The translations under genes were made by a program, and so were the position numbers. A stretch of DNA of 64,000 bases, taken from assembly GCF_004332295.1 (NCBI RefSeq), contig NZ_RXLP01000023.1, positions 62,001-126,000 on the forward strand, read 5' to 3'. This stretch comes from Alloscardovia theropitheci (GTDB lineage: Bacteria > Actinomycetota > Actinomycetes > Actinomycetales > Bifidobacteriaceae). Positions 16,165 through 22,327 of the stretch are shown here, piece after piece (position 1 is the first letter of the stretch; each line of letters starts with the position of its first letter). The notes beneath the pieces are model-generated. The model did no database searches and was not told where the DNA came from. It worked only from the letters and a program-made list of their open reading frames with translations.

Positions 16165-17259
16165 TTAAATTCCAGATCGAATGACCCAATCTAGGTAGAA
16201 AATAACTAATGCGATAATGACACACACCATTTCTATCATCCAGAAACGGACAACTACTTTATTTTCTGACCACCCTTTAAGCTCATAATGATGATGAATT
16301 GGTGCCATTTTGAATACTCTTTTATGGAATACTTTGAAGGAAAATATTTGGATAACATCTGATACAGTTTCCCAGACGAAAAGTGCCCCAAGCATGACGG
16401 CTAAGACTTCTGTATGCGTTGCAATAGAAAGAGCTGCAAATAATCCACCTAATGCAAGCGAACCAGTATCTCCCATAAAAATAGTTGCTGGGTTGGAATT
16501 AAACCACAAGAATCCAAAGCATGCTGCCACAGCGCACAGGGCGATAATAGTCAAATCTTGAGGATCCTGGACAGTATAACTGTATGAGTTTGGAAGAGGA
16601 ACGCGATGATATGTCTGCCACATGCCGATGATGGCGAACCCTAAGAAAGCAACCATCGAACTTCCAGATGCAAGACCGTCTAGTCCGTCGGTGAGATTGA
16701 TTGCATTAGTCCATGCAGCAATAAGAAGATTTACCCAAATAATGAAGAGAATTGCAGAAAGTATTGTACCCAAATTCTCAAAACTAATAAATGGCTTTTC
16801 GATAAAAGTAATACCCGAATGAGCAGATACTTGCCCATCTGGCGTTTGGATAGTCAAAGAGAGAATGGCGTAAATTGTAGCAACTGCGATCTGACCGATG
16901 AGCTTTGCGTGGATAGTTAAGCCTTCATTTTGCTTTTTAGCTACCTTTGCGAAATCATCAATAAAGCCAAGCAAACCCATAGAAAGCATAACAAAGAGCA
17001 CAAGAATTGCATTCACAGATGGTGCTTTACCAAGAGCAATTGCACGGTACAATGCAGACGCAAGCCAACCAAAGACGATAGCGATATTTATAACAATCCC
17101 GCCCATAGTCGGTGTCCCGCGCTTAACCATATGCGACTGAGGACCGTCTTGGCGAATGTACTGACCATAATGCAAATCAGTAATAATATTGGTCACAATT
17201 GGTGTACCAATAAAGGTAATCACCAAAGATACCGCTAGACCGATAAGTACCGCAATCAT
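16165..17259 (-). CDS. mraY: Phospho-N-acetylmuramoyl-pentapeptide transferase
   Basis: Integral membrane enzyme that makes lipid I from UDP-MurNAc-pentapeptide and undecaprenyl phosphate. The 364 residues hold about ten membrane helices and the family motifs: GTPTMGGIVINIA, LLGFIDDFAKV (paired Asp), NAINLTDGLDGLASG, FMGDTGSLALGG, and the His motif MAPIHHHYELKGWSE. It starts 18 bases after the murF stop; GGAGGAG stands about ten bases ahead of its ATG. Confidence 0.97.
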   Translation of the reverse strand: MIAVLIGLAVSLVITFIGTPIVTNIITDLHYGQYIRQDGPQSHMVKRGTPTMGGIVINIAIVFGWLASALYRAIALGKAPSVNAILVLFVMLSMGLLGFIDDFAKVAKKQNEGLTIHAKLIGQIAVATIYAILSLTIQTPDGQVSAHSGITFIEKPFISFENLGTILSAILFIIWVNLLIAAWTNAINLTDGLDGLASGSSMVAFLGFAIIGMWQTYHRVPLPNSYSYTVQDPQDLTIIALCAVAACFGFLWFNSNPATIFMGDTGSLALGGLFAALSIATHTEVLAVMLGALFVWETVSDVIQIFSFKVFHKRVFKMAPIHHHYELKGWSENKVVVRFWMIEMVCVIIALVIFYLDWVIRSGI

Positions 17260-17277: not shown

Positions 17278-18855
17278 TTATTGCGCTGAATTGCCAAGCC
17301 ACCGTGAAGCTAACGCACTCAAACCAGATGCATGAGAGCCTTTAAGCAAAACCACCGTATTCTTCTCACTCGCTATCCTATCAACAATAGAATGTGCTTC
17401 ATCAATACTACTTACAAGATAAACATGTTCAGCACATTCAGTTGTATCCTGAGCATTCGTATCTTCGTTAGCATGAGCGCTCTCGCACTCCTTACCCTTT
17501 CGAACTCCGTCGGCAAGACACTGAGCTAAACGTGTCAAATTCTGATCATCGTGAGAACCTACTGCTATGACGATATCCGCGCACGAAGCGGCATATTCGC
17601 CGATTGTACGATGCGCTTCTTCTTCTGTTGGCCCGAGTTCAAGCATCGATCCCAGTACAGCTATACGCGTGAGGTCTTCAGTGTGAGATTCGAAAGATTT
17701 CAACGCATTCAAACCAGCACGCATGGAATCTGGATTTGCATTGAAAGAATCATCAATTACGGTAAAATGCGCTGCCTGAGTATCCACCGGCGCAATGTGC
17801 ATTCGATGAGGACTAATTGCTGTCATTTGTGACAAAACACTTGCTGCAATATGCTCTGGGATATCCAGACTATAGATAACACTTAAGACTGCCAAAGCGT
17901 TGTATACATTATGCTCGCCACTGATGCCCAAGCGTAATTCAAATTGAGAATTATCAGGCAAAGTCACGCTAAACATTGGACGGTTAAAGTCATCTACGCT
18001 CGTATCGGTTCCACGAGTAATTACTGAGGAAACCATTCCAGAAACTGCAGGCTTTGGCTGCTCCTGAGCATTTTTGCGACTAAACCAGATAATGCTGGAA
18101 GCTTTTGTCATGCTTGCCATAGAGCGAACGTTTTCGTCATCAGCATTAAGAATTGCTACTCCAGAACTGGACAGTGCGCGAACAATTTCTGATTTAGCAT
18201 CGCGAATGCCCTCCACGCTACCGAATCCTCCCAAATGTGCTACTCCCACCTTGAGAACGATGGAAATATCAGGAGGAGCAATTGTGGTCAAATAAGCTAT
18301 CTCACCCTGAGCAGAAGCGCCCATTTCCGCCACAAAGAAACGTGTCTTCTCATCAACCTGGAGAGCGGTTAGTGGCAAACCAATATCATTATTGAACGAT
18401 CCCTGAGGAGCAACTGTCGGAGCTAATCGCAATAAAACAGTGCTCAGCATGTCTTTTGTAGTCGTTTTCCCCACTGAGCCTGTAATCGCAATGATTGTAA
18501 ACTCATTCATGCCACGCGCAGCAAAAGCTTTGCGTTTTTCAATATTGAGTCGAGCAATATCCCCCAAGGCTTTAATAGTATCTTCTACAAGAAGCTGTGG
18601 CACACTTGCTCCATCGATAAGATGATCTACTACTGCCAGCGCTGTGTCACTGAGGTTCGACACAAAATCATGCCCATCGACATGCTCGCCCGCGATAGCT
18701 ACAAAAGCACTTGAATCATTCGATTGTCGAGAGTCGGTTGTTACTGAAGTGATAACAAAATCATCACTTTGAGGAATCTCATCAATGCGCTGGCTATCAA
18801 TATACAGTTGTCCAATTCCAGCGGTTATTAGTTCACTTACATGTGTTGAAATCAT
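17278..18855 (-). CDS. murF: UDP-MurNAc-tripeptide--D-Ala-D-Ala ligase
   Basis: Final cytoplasmic stem-peptide ligase, adding D-Ala-D-Ala. The 525 residues include the substrate domain with TTDSRQSNDSSAFVAIAGEH, the ATP loop ITGSVGKTTTKDML, NNDIGLPLTAL, GISGEHNVYNALAVLSV and the C-terminal DDSFNANPDSMRAGLN. All expected motifs are intact. Its ATG overlaps the stop of the MurE-like gene (ATGA), so the two are translationally coupled. A short insert around KECESAHANEDTNAQDTTEC near the C-terminus is not usual. Confidence 0.96.
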   Translation of the reverse strand: MISTHVSELITAGIGQLYIDSQRIDEIPQSDDFVITSVTTDSRQSNDSSAFVAIAGEHVDGHDFVSNLSDTALAVVDHLIDGASVPQLLVEDTIKALGDIARLNIEKRKAFAARGMNEFTIIAITGSVGKTTTKDMLSTVLLRLAPTVAPQGSFNNDIGLPLTALQVDEKTRFFVAEMGASAQGEIAYLTTIAPPDISIVLKVGVAHLGGFGSVEGIRDAKSEIVRALSSSGVAILNADDENVRSMASMTKASSIIWFSRKNAQEQPKPAVSGMVSSVITRGTDTSVDDFNRPMFSVTLPDNSQFELRLGISGEHNVYNALAVLSVIYSLDIPEHIAASVLSQMTAISPHRMHIAPVDTQAAHFTVIDDSFNANPDSMRAGLNALKSFESHTEDLTRIAVLGSMLELGPTEEEAHRTIGEYAASCADIVIAVGSHDDQNLTRLAQCLADGVRKGKECESAHANEDTNAQDTTECAEHVYLVSSIDEAHSIVDRIASEKNTVVLLKGSHASGLSALASRWLGNSAQ

Positions 18856-19940
18856 GACTTATCTGCTTTCATTTCGTAAGAAAGACGCAATGCGCTCTTA
18901 ACTGAATTACGTTTTACACCAGCGGCGAGTACCATCGCAACAGCTGTTGCTATATTCTCATATTGACGTTCGTTGATTTCACCGAGAACTTCACGTACTA
19001 ATTCGCGTGAATCATCAGTAGCTTCCACACACATAGTGTTATCACGAATTTCTGCACCGTATGGTTGTATGTTTTGCCTTGCCAAACGGCGCAAATCTTC
19101 CACTTCGTCATGCTTGGATTTGCGTGTCAAAAAAGTATGCTGAGGGCCAATTTGCGGCACATTATACGTTTCATTAACAGTATTAGTGTAAACGTCTACA
19201 TTAACCTTTGTCAGCGCAAGTGATTGAAGAACTTCATCATCGACATCGATAATGACGGAAGTCGCACCATCTTCTACCATCACATAGAGCATGCGTTGAA
19301 TATCTAGAGGTGATAGCGGAGTAGGCAAAGAAAGCTCACGCTCTAGGCTAATTCCTCCACGCCTATCAATAATTCCTAAAGGATTTCCTAAATAATGCAA
19401 TAAATCATACAGTTCAGTAATAACAGAACTGCGAACTCGTGGTGTAGCCTCAGTATCTGGGACAGTAATATCTGCGCTTATATTCGTGTCGCTATCCGAG
19501 TCATTATCAGACACACCATCAGCGTGATCGATTTCTTCAGTATCCCAGCTCAGACTATCGCCTTGTACTGCAAATACAGCTAATGATCGAGATGGCTCGC
19601 CTGCTAGGTCCGCAGCTATACGAGCACGTTCATCATTATGCATATCTGCAAAAAGAACTGGTATCTCCATATCTATCGGAGCAATTTGCGACTGGGCTTT
19701 GTCCTCAAGCATAAATACAACGGCATATGCCCCTCTACGTGCCGCTGCATGCACTATACGAGAATCGTACTCACTTGTAGAGCTTATATACAAAGCTCCG
19801 GGAGTAATATCCTCTAACGCATCGGCTACGGAGGTCAATGTAACAGCATCATGCTGTGTTCCCACAGTTTTGATGCCATAACGACGTCGAATATCACCAA
19901 TAGTGGTGTGCTCGGAAATGGTTTCACTAACACTTGACAT
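18852..19940 (-). CDS. MurE-like protein lacking catalytic motifs (probable pseudoenzyme)
   Basis: This gene sits where murE lies in most dcw operons, between ftsI and murF. Its 362 residues align by eye with MurE in order. The N-terminal domain has ITPGALYISSTSEYDSRIVHAAARRGAYAVV, like the MurE substrate domain. The ATP loop, GTNGKTT in active enzymes, reads GDSLSWD here (about 128-134), followed by an acidic insert (135-165). TTPDPL becomes LPTPLSPLDIQRML, EVSSHAL becomes DVDDEVL (232-238), and the Asn-Leu-x-Asp-His-Leu-Asp-Tyr-His motif becomes NTVNETYN. The C-terminal domain is truncated and has no DNPR motif; usual MurE is nearer 490 residues. It should not bind ATP or ligate an amino acid. 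The frame is intact and coupled to murF, so it is probably a maintained structural or regulatory protein. The true murE must lie elsewhere. Confidence 0.82.
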   Translation of the reverse strand: MSSVSETISEHTTIGDIRRRYGIKTVGTQHDAVTLTSVADALEDITPGALYISSTSEYDSRIVHAAARRGAYAVVFMLEDKAQSQIAPIDMEIPVLFADMHNDERARIAADLAGEPSRSLAVFAVQGDSLSWDTEEIDHADGVSDNDSDSDTNISADITVPDTEATPRVRSSVITELYDLLHYLGNPLGIIDRRGGISLERELSLPTPLSPLDIQRMLYVMVEDGATSVIIDVDDEVLQSLALTKVNVDVYTNTVNETYNVPQIGPQHTFLTRKSKHDEVEDLRRLARQNIQPYGAEIRDNTMCVEATDDSRELVREVLGEINERQYENIATAVAMVLAAGVKRNSVKSALRLSYEMKADKS

Positions 19941-19974: not shown

Positions 19975-21843
19975 TTACCAGGTGATAGGAATAGCGTCGG
20001 TTCGAGGAGCAGATTGTGGTATCTGATACTTCTGCATCAAGAATTTACCGATGTTTTGAACTACTGGACCTACTGAGGCACCACCATAATAGGCATCTGC
20101 ATTCTTCATGAAGACAGCAATAACATATTGAGGCTTATCAGCCGGCAAAGCGATGATATAGTCCCCTACGATACCTGTAAGTCGACCACCTTCACCAGCA
20201 ACTTCTGCAGTTCCAGATTTTCCAGCAATACGGTATCCAGGAACTGTTACGACGCGCGCATATTCCTCACCGATATTCTCCATCATATTCATCATGGTAG
20301 CTGCGGTTTCCTCAGAGATGACGCGCTTCGACTCATTTGCTGATGGCGTTGTATCTTTACCTTGGGCATTGGTTGATTTTTCAATTAATCGCTGTCCTAA
20401 ACGCACACCACCGTTAGCAATAGTGGCAATTACATTCGTCATTTGTAAAGCGTTAACCGTATACCCTTGTCCGAAAAGAACGGTTTCGCGTGTACGCGTA
20501 TCCCAATCGTTACCATTCGAAACGAGCAAACCGTTAGATTCACCCGGGAAATTAATGCCTGTCGGCTGCCCGATACCGAAATCAGTAATATATTGGTAGC
20601 GCTTTTCTGTCGAATAATTATAGGCAGTCATAATCGTTCCGGTGTTATAGGAATGATACAGAATACCTGCAAGCGTAAGATTCTCATCCCCATGTGGCAA
20701 TGCATCGTGATATGTCTGCCCACGATATTCAAGGCTATATGGCACCGTGAAGTGATCAGTAGCCTTGTGCAGCCCCTCTTGCAATACACCTGATGCTGTA
20801 ATGAGCTTTCCTGTCGAACCAGGATCAAATGTAGATTGCATTGCTGGCGAGCCTTTAGTCAATGCATCTTCTGAATTTGCCGCATACTGATCAGAATCAG
20901 AAATTGCAATAATACGCCCTGTCTTAATTTCTTGGACTACTCCGATACCCCAGTCGGCATGTTGATTTTCTACGCGAGCTTTGAGTTCTTTATTGAGATA
21001 CCACTGCACATCAGAATCAATCGTGAGTTTAACTGTGCCACCAGGAGTTGCCACAGACTGTACTTTTTCAGTTCCAGGAATCTTGGCAGTTCCATAAATT
21101 GGATTAGTCTGCTCGTAAGTTTCCACACCATTAATACCCTGTAGAGAAGCTTCTTCCATGGACTCAATACCGGTGACACCTTTACCTTCACCGTTTACGC
21201 CTCCAAGTATCGAGCCAATGAGCGTTGGATTAGAGTAGACACGTTCACTAATGAGCTCAGCACCTACTACACCAGATAGATGGAGTTTATCAATGCGACG
21301 TTTTACTTCTGGGGTGACGTTATTCGCAACGACAACATAGCGTGTATCGCCTGCTATTTTTGCACCGAGTTCTTGAACATTAAGTTGCAAAACAGGTGCC
21401 AAAATTCTTGCTACTGCAGAAGCACCTTTTCCTGGAACATCCTGACCTTTAAGGCTGTGGCAGACATCTTTGAGTTCTTCAGCTCGTTCTTCATACTGCG
21501 CATCTGTCATCGAACGTGTACGTTTTGGAGTACAGGACGTTGGAGTAAAATTCTTTGCCCCGACTTGGTCTACGTAAATCTTATATGCTTCAACACTTTG
21601 AGCAAGGATTTCACCATTTGTATCGACGATACTTCCACGCATTGCTTGGACTCGTGCTGTAATCGTTCGAGAATTTTCTGCTTCTTGCGCTACGCCTGCT
21701 GCATTAAAAATTTGCAAATAAGCAAGTCGATATACGCAAATTCCCAGCACAATTGCCCACACTACGATTATCGCTAATGTGCGACGTCGAATAGTGTGGG
21801 CATACGCTGAATCATATTTTTTTCGCGCAGGCGTTTGTAACAT
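19975..21843 (-). CDS. ftsI: Septal penicillin-binding protein, transpeptidase FtsI/PBP3
   Basis: Class B penicillin-binding protein that cross-links septal peptidoglycan with FtsW. From the ATG at 21843 it has a short basic tail, one membrane helix (LAIIVVWAIVLGICVYRLAY), the dimerisation domain with RGSIVDTNGEILAQS, and the transpeptidase domain. The active-site motifs are present: STGK with Ser343, SYN at about 398 and KSGTAEV at about 542. There are no PASTA repeats. The frame is open upstream to a TTG at 21867, but the ATG lies one base past the ftsL-like stop and is more likely. Length about 622. Confidence 0.95.
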   Translation of the reverse strand: MLQTPARKKYDSAYAHTIRRRTLAIIVVWAIVLGICVYRLAYLQIFNAAGVAQEAENSRTITARVQAMRGSIVDTNGEILAQSVEAYKIYVDQVGAKNFTPTSCTPKRTRSMTDAQYEERAEELKDVCHSLKGQDVPGKGASAVARILAPVLQLNVQELGAKIAGDTRYVVVANNVTPEVKRRIDKLHLSGVVGAELISERVYSNPTLIGSILGGVNGEGKGVTGIESMEEASLQGINGVETYEQTNPIYGTAKIPGTEKVQSVATPGGTVKLTIDSDVQWYLNKELKARVENQHADWGIGVVQEIKTGRIIAISDSDQYAANSEDALTKGSPAMQSTFDPGSTGKLITASGVLQEGLHKATDHFTVPYSLEYRGQTYHDALPHGDENLTLAGILYHSYNTGTIMTAYNYSTEKRYQYITDFGIGQPTGINFPGESNGLLVSNGNDWDTRTRETVLFGQGYTVNALQMTNVIATIANGGVRLGQRLIEKSTNAQGKDTTPSANESKRVISEETAATMMNMMENIGEEYARVVTVPGYRIAGKSGTAEVAGEGGRLTGIVGDYIIALPADKPQYVIAVFMKNADAYYGGASVGPVVQNIGKFLMQKYQIPQSAPRTDAIPITW

Positions 21844-21844
21844 A

Positions 21845-22327
21845 TTACTGAGCGTTCCCCATATCAATTGTCATACTGTCACTACCCTGTTGCATCCCCA
21901 TTTGGGTTGCTCGCTCTGGAAGTCCGGCTTCAAGATTATTAAGTTTTGCTCTATCTTGCTGGACATCTTGAGTTAGTTGGGCGACAGAATTTTGAGTCTG
22001 AGTAATGCTAAATGCATTTTCAGTCATTTGTGTACGTAGTACTAATGTAATACCTAAACTCGCAATGAGCAATGCTATGGACGATGACAGTACCAACGCC
22101 GATAAACGTCGATTGTCTGCAACATTTCGTACCTGAGCCATAACTGATGAGCGTTGACGATTATCGTGAACGCTCACACGCAATTGAGGGCGCGCTGAAC
22201 CTGTTGAATATGAGGTACGTCGATTTGGCCTTGTAGCTCGCATTGCAGAACTACTACGACGCATCATCGGACTGTATGATTGTGCGGATCGAGAGCTTCG
22301 TGCTTCACGTTCTTGAGCGGCGGCCAT
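21845..22327 (-). CDS. ftsL: FtsL-like bitopic division protein
   Basis: A 160-residue protein with the FtsL layout: a basic, Ser/Arg-rich cytoplasmic tail of about 80, one membrane helix (LSALVLSSSIALLIASLGITLVL), then a short outer coiled coil (QTQNSVAQLTQDVQQDRAKLNNLEAG) with heptad-like leucines. FtsL sequences are poorly conserved, so the assignment rests on topology and on its place between rsmH and ftsI. The start overlaps the end of rsmH by 23 bases. In other bacteria FtsL binds FtsB/DivIC and FtsQ and activates FtsWI. Confidence 0.8.
   Translation of the reverse strand: MAAAQEREARSSRSAQSYSPMMRRSSSAMRATRPNRRTSYSTGSARPQLRVSVHDNRQRSSVMAQVRNVADNRRLSALVLSSSIALLIASLGITLVLRTQMTENAFSITQTQNSVAQLTQDVQQDRAKLNNLEAGLPERATQMGMQQGSDSMTIDMGNAQ

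Follow-up and report, generated by a model that had tools for sequence, protein, structure and literature searches.

What does a gene in the murE position of a dcw cluster do once the catalytic motifs of MurE have been lost from it? This question is raised by a 64,000-nucleotide stretch of the genome of Alloscardovia theropitheci (Bifidobacteriaceae), hereafter the window, in which the genes are ordered mraZ-mraW-ftsL-ftsI-[pMurE]-murF-mraY-murD-ftsW-murG. The gene that we named pMurE is an open reading frame of 362 codons with an ATG start, located at 18852-19940 on the minus strand. A first-pass annotation of the sequence had described it as a relative of MurE with an intact frame overlapping murF by ATGA, and both the frame and the overlap (murF at 17278-18855) were confirmed. 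Literature searches for a pseudo-MurE or for a Bifidobacterium dcw murE returned no description. The relevant features of the window are:

18852..19940, minus strand: pMurE, a motif-dead two-domain MurE descendant (open reading frame; matches to MurE by profile, PDB and fold; orthologues at the same position)
19584..19907, minus strand: N-terminal domain of the UDP-MurNAc-binding type, residues about 12-119 (AlphaFold model; joint alignment with intact dcw MurE)
18858..19583, minus strand: what is left of the central ATPase domain, residues about 120-361 (AlphaFold model; alignment)
19548..19565, minus strand: former place of the P-loop (GTNGKTT in MurE), now QGDSLS (alignment with intact MurE)
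19431..19553, minus strand: acidic insert, residues about 130-170 (not in relatives; pLDDT about 50)
19380..19400, minus strand: invariant LHxLGNP signature, residues 181-187 (106/106 sequences)
19227..19247, minus strand: former place of EVSSHAL, now DVDDEVL, residues 232-238 (alignment with intact MurE)
17278..18855, minus strand: murF, with intact P-loop, overlapping pMurE by ATGA (open reading frame; domain search)
19975..21867, minus strand: ftsI (penicillin-binding protein), the upstream neighbour of pMurE (open reading frame; locus comparison)
16165..17259, minus strand: mraY, candidate functional partner via rate covariation (open reading frame; rate covariation)

pMurE descends from MurE and keeps two of its domains

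The MurE ancestry of pMurE is beyond chance. The protein matches the NCBIfam murE model TIGR01085 (E=2e-5) at 23.6 bits, far below the curated cut-off of 257 bits that marks MurE ligases, and its match among PDB sequences is MurE of M. tuberculosis (2wtz, E=7e-5). A Pfam search of pMurE found no true family; a TBC1D23_C match below the cut-off (E=9e-4), covering the N-terminal end and the acidic insert, was judged spurious. The AlphaFold model of the window protein, built on 44 orthologues (pLDDT 85, pTM 0.82), contains the N-terminal and central domain folds of MurE, and its best PDB matches in Foldseek were chains of M. tuberculosis MurE along with PAP11, a MurE-like plant protein. An orthologue from a compact genome, with about 29% identity, was modelled as well and gave an identical two-domain fold and identical PDB matches. 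The kinship with MurE that the first-pass annotation had recognised is thus supported by profile, PDB sequence and fold alike, and the dcw position between ftsI and murF is that of an orthologue by descent.

The long branch of pMurE prevented its exact placement in a tree, and descent was therefore read from gene position and profile scores. With a pMurE profile, dcw MurE proteins from sister families reached 60-103 bits, whereas the second MurE of Bifidobacteriaceae (MurE2, see below) did not exceed 24 bits and MurF and MurD of the same family scored about 0. These scores indicate that the resident dcw MurE is the ancestor of pMurE, with MurE2 as its replacement.

Catalytic motifs are lost and new invariant residues gained

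In an alignment of 44 pMurE orthologues with 13 intact dcw MurE proteins, the window protein has GDSLSW in place of GTNGKT and DVDDEVL in place of EVSSHAL, while DHLDYH is gone. Among the 44 orthologues, the P-loop GTNGKTT, EVSSHA, DHLxxH together with the carbamoylated-lysine segment, and the DNPR-type site are replaced in practically all; the same is true for the N-terminal GxxxHG loop, even though the N-terminal fold is retained. The invariant K and T of the P-loop are kept in 0-7% of these sequences. Not one of 106 distinct pMurE sequences has an active-site motif in place, given that a single GxxxxGK[ST] match and a single DDPR match lie away from the motif positions and were attributed to chance. 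The first-pass annotation had reported the loss of the ATP loop, EVSSHAL and DHLDYH correctly, and the profile alignment and structure prediction that it proposed as a check both agree with it: the MurE fold is kept and the catalytic motifs are lost. Its "short" C-terminal domain needs correction, as the C-terminal ligase domain is entirely absent from the window protein and all of its relatives, which stop at the end of the central domain. The sequences thus predict that pMurE has no ligase activity.

pMurE and MurE have the structural residues P47, G48, G70, P94, P116, G127, L181, and G185 in common, whereas T34, T36, Y72, F123, H182, N186, and P187, and nearly so R201 and S198, are invariant in pMurE only. 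The string LHxLGNP is found in 106/106 distinct pMurE sequences. Judged from fold topology, the former ATP site is on one face of the central sheet and the LHxLGNP and EDG turns are probably on the other.

An acidic insert filling the ATP site had also been claimed. The insert exists (about 40 residues at the former P-loop), but it occurs in the window species only and is predicted to be disordered (pLDDT about 50). We rejected it as part of the mechanism because the other orthologues all lack it and yet have lost the P-loop. Other inserts are found elsewhere in the protein: in genus g5 (L051-L053), a long low-complexity insert separates the last strand from the C-terminal helices and brings pMurE to 389-413 amino acids, and in some proteins of genus g15 (L047, L044/L035) inserts of low complexity follow the PGxLY motif of the N-terminal domain.

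pMurE is found throughout the family and is under purifying selection

The loss of MurE motifs is family-wide and not local to the strain of the window. pMurE was detected in 139 of 151 Bifidobacteriaceae genomes, and in all 130 of those that are near-complete (≥90% complete, ≤5% contaminated); the 12 genomes without it are incomplete assemblies, most of them from five genera. In every locus whose gene order was read, pMurE directly precedes murF and follows ftsI, or mraW in clusters that have lost ftsI. In a survey of the order (198 genomes), matches outside the family were much weaker; 15 sister-family loci were read, and in each a full-length MurE occupies the place between ftsI and murF. 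In a survey of the phylum (297 genomes), the genome of the window alone gave a match at E<1e-20, and the 80 relatives with names in the genome collection all belong to Bifidobacteriaceae.

Termite-associated-type genera have ftsI, mraY, and murF but no pMurE, so its role is not universal. These genera (g3, g4, and g9) also lack the Lactobacillales-type MurE2. As a side observation, they (L089-L095, L098) have no murE between ftsI and murF; their MurE, of a third kind, is encoded elsewhere or on the opposite strand and is nearer to the DAP-type MurE of Bacillus and Listeria (87/85 support).

The compact genus g12 (L105, L106, L107; 0.6-0.9 Mb) has a cluster without mraZ, ftsL, ftsI, and ftsW, in which mraW-pMurE-murF-mraY-murD-murG are kept. 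In most of these genomes, searches revealed a single SEDS protein along with two transpeptidases, with the SEDS gene adjoining one of the transpeptidase genes, a pattern expected of RodA/PbpA. This suggests that g12 divides without the usual FtsW/FtsI pair.

No fusion of pMurE with MurF was present in the loci examined; two genomes have open frames of 657 and 976 amino acids that look like fusions, but these frames run from stop to stop in GC-rich DNA. Neither the ATGA overlap nor the pMurE-murF spacing is conserved across Bifidobacteriaceae, and translational coupling was rejected on this ground as the reason for retention of pMurE.

Given that an initial comparison of all pairs (578 pairs; dN/dS of 0.56 for pMurE) was saturated, it was discarded and replaced by Nei-Gojobori estimates from 22 independent pairs of closely related sequences with unsaturated synonymous change. 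The median dN/dS was 0.10 for pMurE, as compared to 0.15 for murF, 0.10 for murD, 0.11 for ftsI, 0.115 for mraW, and 0.036 for mraY, and the pMurE frame was intact in 81 of 81 cases. Together, these values exclude random decay and bear out the purifying selection for which a survey of orthologues had been proposed. Conservation as tight as that of its enzyme neighbours makes a non-catalytic job for pMurE very probable.

A motif-intact MurE is encoded outside the dcw cluster

If pMurE does not ligate, another protein should do so, and the first-pass annotation had placed the true MurE elsewhere in the genome. This expectation was correct. Of the six Mur-ligase central domains in the genome of the window species, five belong to MurC, MurD, MurF, MurT, and FolC, and the sixth to one intact MurE. 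MurE2 is encoded at G000:C4:26077-27555, on the same contig but beyond the window, at a distance of about 53 kb from pMurE, and displays the motifs GITGTKGKST and EVSSQAY. It is present in 53 of 54 sampled pMurE-bearing genomes (51/51 good ones). With catalytic residues lost, the fold kept, purifying selection acting and a separate active-type MurE in the same genome, pMurE is, with high confidence, a MurE-derived pseudoenzyme retained across Bifidobacteriaceae, much as initially proposed.

MurE2 is closer to the L-lysine ligase of Enterococcus faecalis (37.8%) than to actinobacterial MurE. In our tree, Bifidobacteriaceae MurE2 is sister to the Lys-MurE of Lactobacillales (100/99 support) and apart from the dcw MurE of other families (supports 100/99 and 100/100). 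MurE2 thus looks to have been acquired from a Lactobacillales-like source, with donor and direction of transfer provisional, given that the rooting relied on only two Lactobacillales sequences. Bifidobacteria have Lys/Orn peptidoglycan, which fits a Lys/Orn-type MurE2.

Several Bifidobacterium genomes carry tandem or multiple copies of MurE2 (G142:C1:302854-306098 (L069/L263), G144:C1:232715-235856, G110, G135, G007, G062, and G050), which are possibly enzymes differing in amino-acid preference.

Rate covariation weakly points to the membrane steps

Relative evolutionary rates of seven genes were compared on a fixed tree in an 81-taxon, a 51-taxon and a terminal-branch analysis. In this order, rho between pMurE and FtsI was 0.36, 0.56, and 0.42; for MraY it was 0.25, 0.47, and 0.47; for MurF 0.11, 0.35, and 0.38; and for MurD 0.15, 0.27, and 0.16. 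The rates of pMurE and MurE2 do not covary (-0.22 in the 51-taxon and -0.07 in the terminal-branch analysis). These values are correlative and come from few genes and correlated branches, and the adjacency of ftsI and pMurE, or shared recombination, may contribute to them. Given that g12 keeps pMurE after loss of ftsI and the divisome ftsW, FtsI is not the sole partner. The covariation weakly points to the membrane steps, where MraY would be a candidate compatible with g12.

Discussion

The simplest history, whose order of events we infer, is the import of a new MurE with the resident copy kept as a pseudoenzyme. In an ancestor of the main Bifidobacteriaceae lineage, a Lys/Orn-type MurE2 would have arrived from a Lactobacillales-like donor and relieved the resident dcw MurE of catalysis. 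The resident protein, a vertical descendant of the actinobacterial dcw-cluster MurE, would then have become non-catalytic through loss of its P-loop, of the sites for the amino acid and the UDP-sugar, and of the entire C-terminal ligase domain. Its body may have been retained as an adaptor, or as a factor that helps to assemble the machinery of peptidoglycan synthesis. Produced in step with the dcw operon, pMurE would act at or near proteins of the membrane steps (MraY, FtsI or other class B PBPs). A precedent comes from M. tuberculosis, in which Mur ligases bound FtsZ, FtsW, FtsQ, Wag31, and SepF (PMC3605390); such contacts provide a reason why the body of a ligase could outlive its chemistry. 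We consider the chances for and against an adaptor or assembly role near MraY and FtsI to be evenly balanced. The wider proposal of a family-wide, MurE-derived envelope component, in which the imported enzyme catalyses and the old body joins precursor synthesis to the membrane steps, is more tentative and falls slightly short of an even chance.

Among the alternatives, the one closest to the first-pass annotation assigns pMurE to MurF (or MurD), which it would serve as a dedicated partner or allosteric subunit, for instance by holding the tripeptide precursor. pMurE lies directly upstream of murF in all loci examined, with a 4-base overlap in the window species, the two genes stay together in the reduced g12 clusters, and natural MurE-MurF fusions exist (Bordetella, PMC6420597; structure 8f5d). 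The rates of pMurE and MurF covary positively in the 51-taxon and terminal-branch analyses (0.35 and 0.38, but 0.11 in the largest), whereas covariation with FtsI and MraY is stronger, so that neither MurF nor MurD is favoured over these two or established as the partner. Given also that the loci examined hold no pMurE-MurF fusion, that the ATGA overlap is not conserved in the family, and that the Mur ligases of M. tuberculosis did not bind one another (PMC3605390), we regard this arrangement as unlikely. The newly invariant T34, T36, Y72, F123, H182, N186, P187, S198, and R201 include residues of potential ligand-binding types, and pMurE might instead be a ligand-binding sensor or new catalyst acting through H182, N186, P187, R201, E223, and D224. 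The residues of the UDP and nucleotide sites are lost, however, and the LHxLGNP and EDG turns follow helices and would face away from the former ATP site, an arrangement more in keeping with a binding face than with an active site; a sensor or catalyst is thus distinctly unlikely.

pMurE could also be a regulatory subunit that adapts the foreign MurE2 to the host pathway. Each pMurE genus checked has MurE2, and the termite-type genera examined have neither, but a single ancestral event could explain this co-occurrence; since the two genes are unlinked and their rates do not covary, we judge such a subunit improbable. The reading of pMurE as a pseudogene, or as a spacer that serves nothing but murF translation, is highly improbable. 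The long branch, the loss of all catalytic residues and the tight murF spacing in the window species would be expected in this case; the low dN/dS of the independent pairs, the lack of broken frames (0/81), the new invariant residues, the retention in 0.6-0.9 Mb genomes and the variable murF spacing would not. Finally, the retained two-domain fold could be taken to mean that pMurE still ligates an amino acid by an altered mechanism, but the P-loop, the carbamoylated-lysine segment and the C-terminal amino-acid-binding domain are missing from every orthologue, and the probability of such an activity is close to negligible.

Mur ligases have long been suspected to act beyond catalysis, in complexes with MraY, MurG and the division machinery, which would explain the gene order of the dcw cluster. 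Such a structural role is hard to test, because removal of a ligase deprives the cell of precursor and kills it. The Bifidobacteriaceae appear to offer a natural experiment, in which catalysis has been outsourced and the old ligase body kept family-deep, even in genomes of 0.6-0.9 Mb. If the adaptor reading is true, this experiment has set apart what a Mur ligase does structurally from what it catalyses. Perturbing pMurE would then reveal the structural role by itself. A practical warning also applies to annotation: pipelines may label the dcw copy murE and miss the working enzyme encoded elsewhere.

Similar to the dcw MurE of other actinobacteria (M. tuberculosis 2wtz and 2xja), pMurE occupies the ftsI-murE-murF slot and has the N-terminal and central folds with their structural residues; it differs in lacking the P-loop, EVSSHA, DHLxxH, the carbamoyl-lysine segment and the C-terminal domain, and in having gained LHxLGNP. 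Its length of 287-361 amino acids (362 in the window species, more in g5 owing to the insert) compares with about 500 for MurE. MurE2 and the Lys-type MurE of Lactobacillales represent the catalytic counterpart, in that MurE2 is the intact-motif MurE of the same cells, but the profile scores argue against MurE2 as the ancestor of pMurE. Fusions of MurE and MurF (Bordetella; 8f5d) also hold the bodies of the two proteins together, and interaction of the Bordetella fusion with MurG has been reported (PMC6420597); in these fusions both halves are active enzymes, whereas pMurE is a separate protein and dead by sequence. A further parallel is PAP11, a subunit of the plastid RNA polymerase (8r6s, 8xzv, 8w9z) and the top fold match of both pMurE models, which is likewise a MurE homologue with a structural role in a complex. 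PAP11 keeps three domains and binds partly via its C-terminal domain (PMC12681378), while pMurE lacks this domain and belongs to another lineage and another complex.
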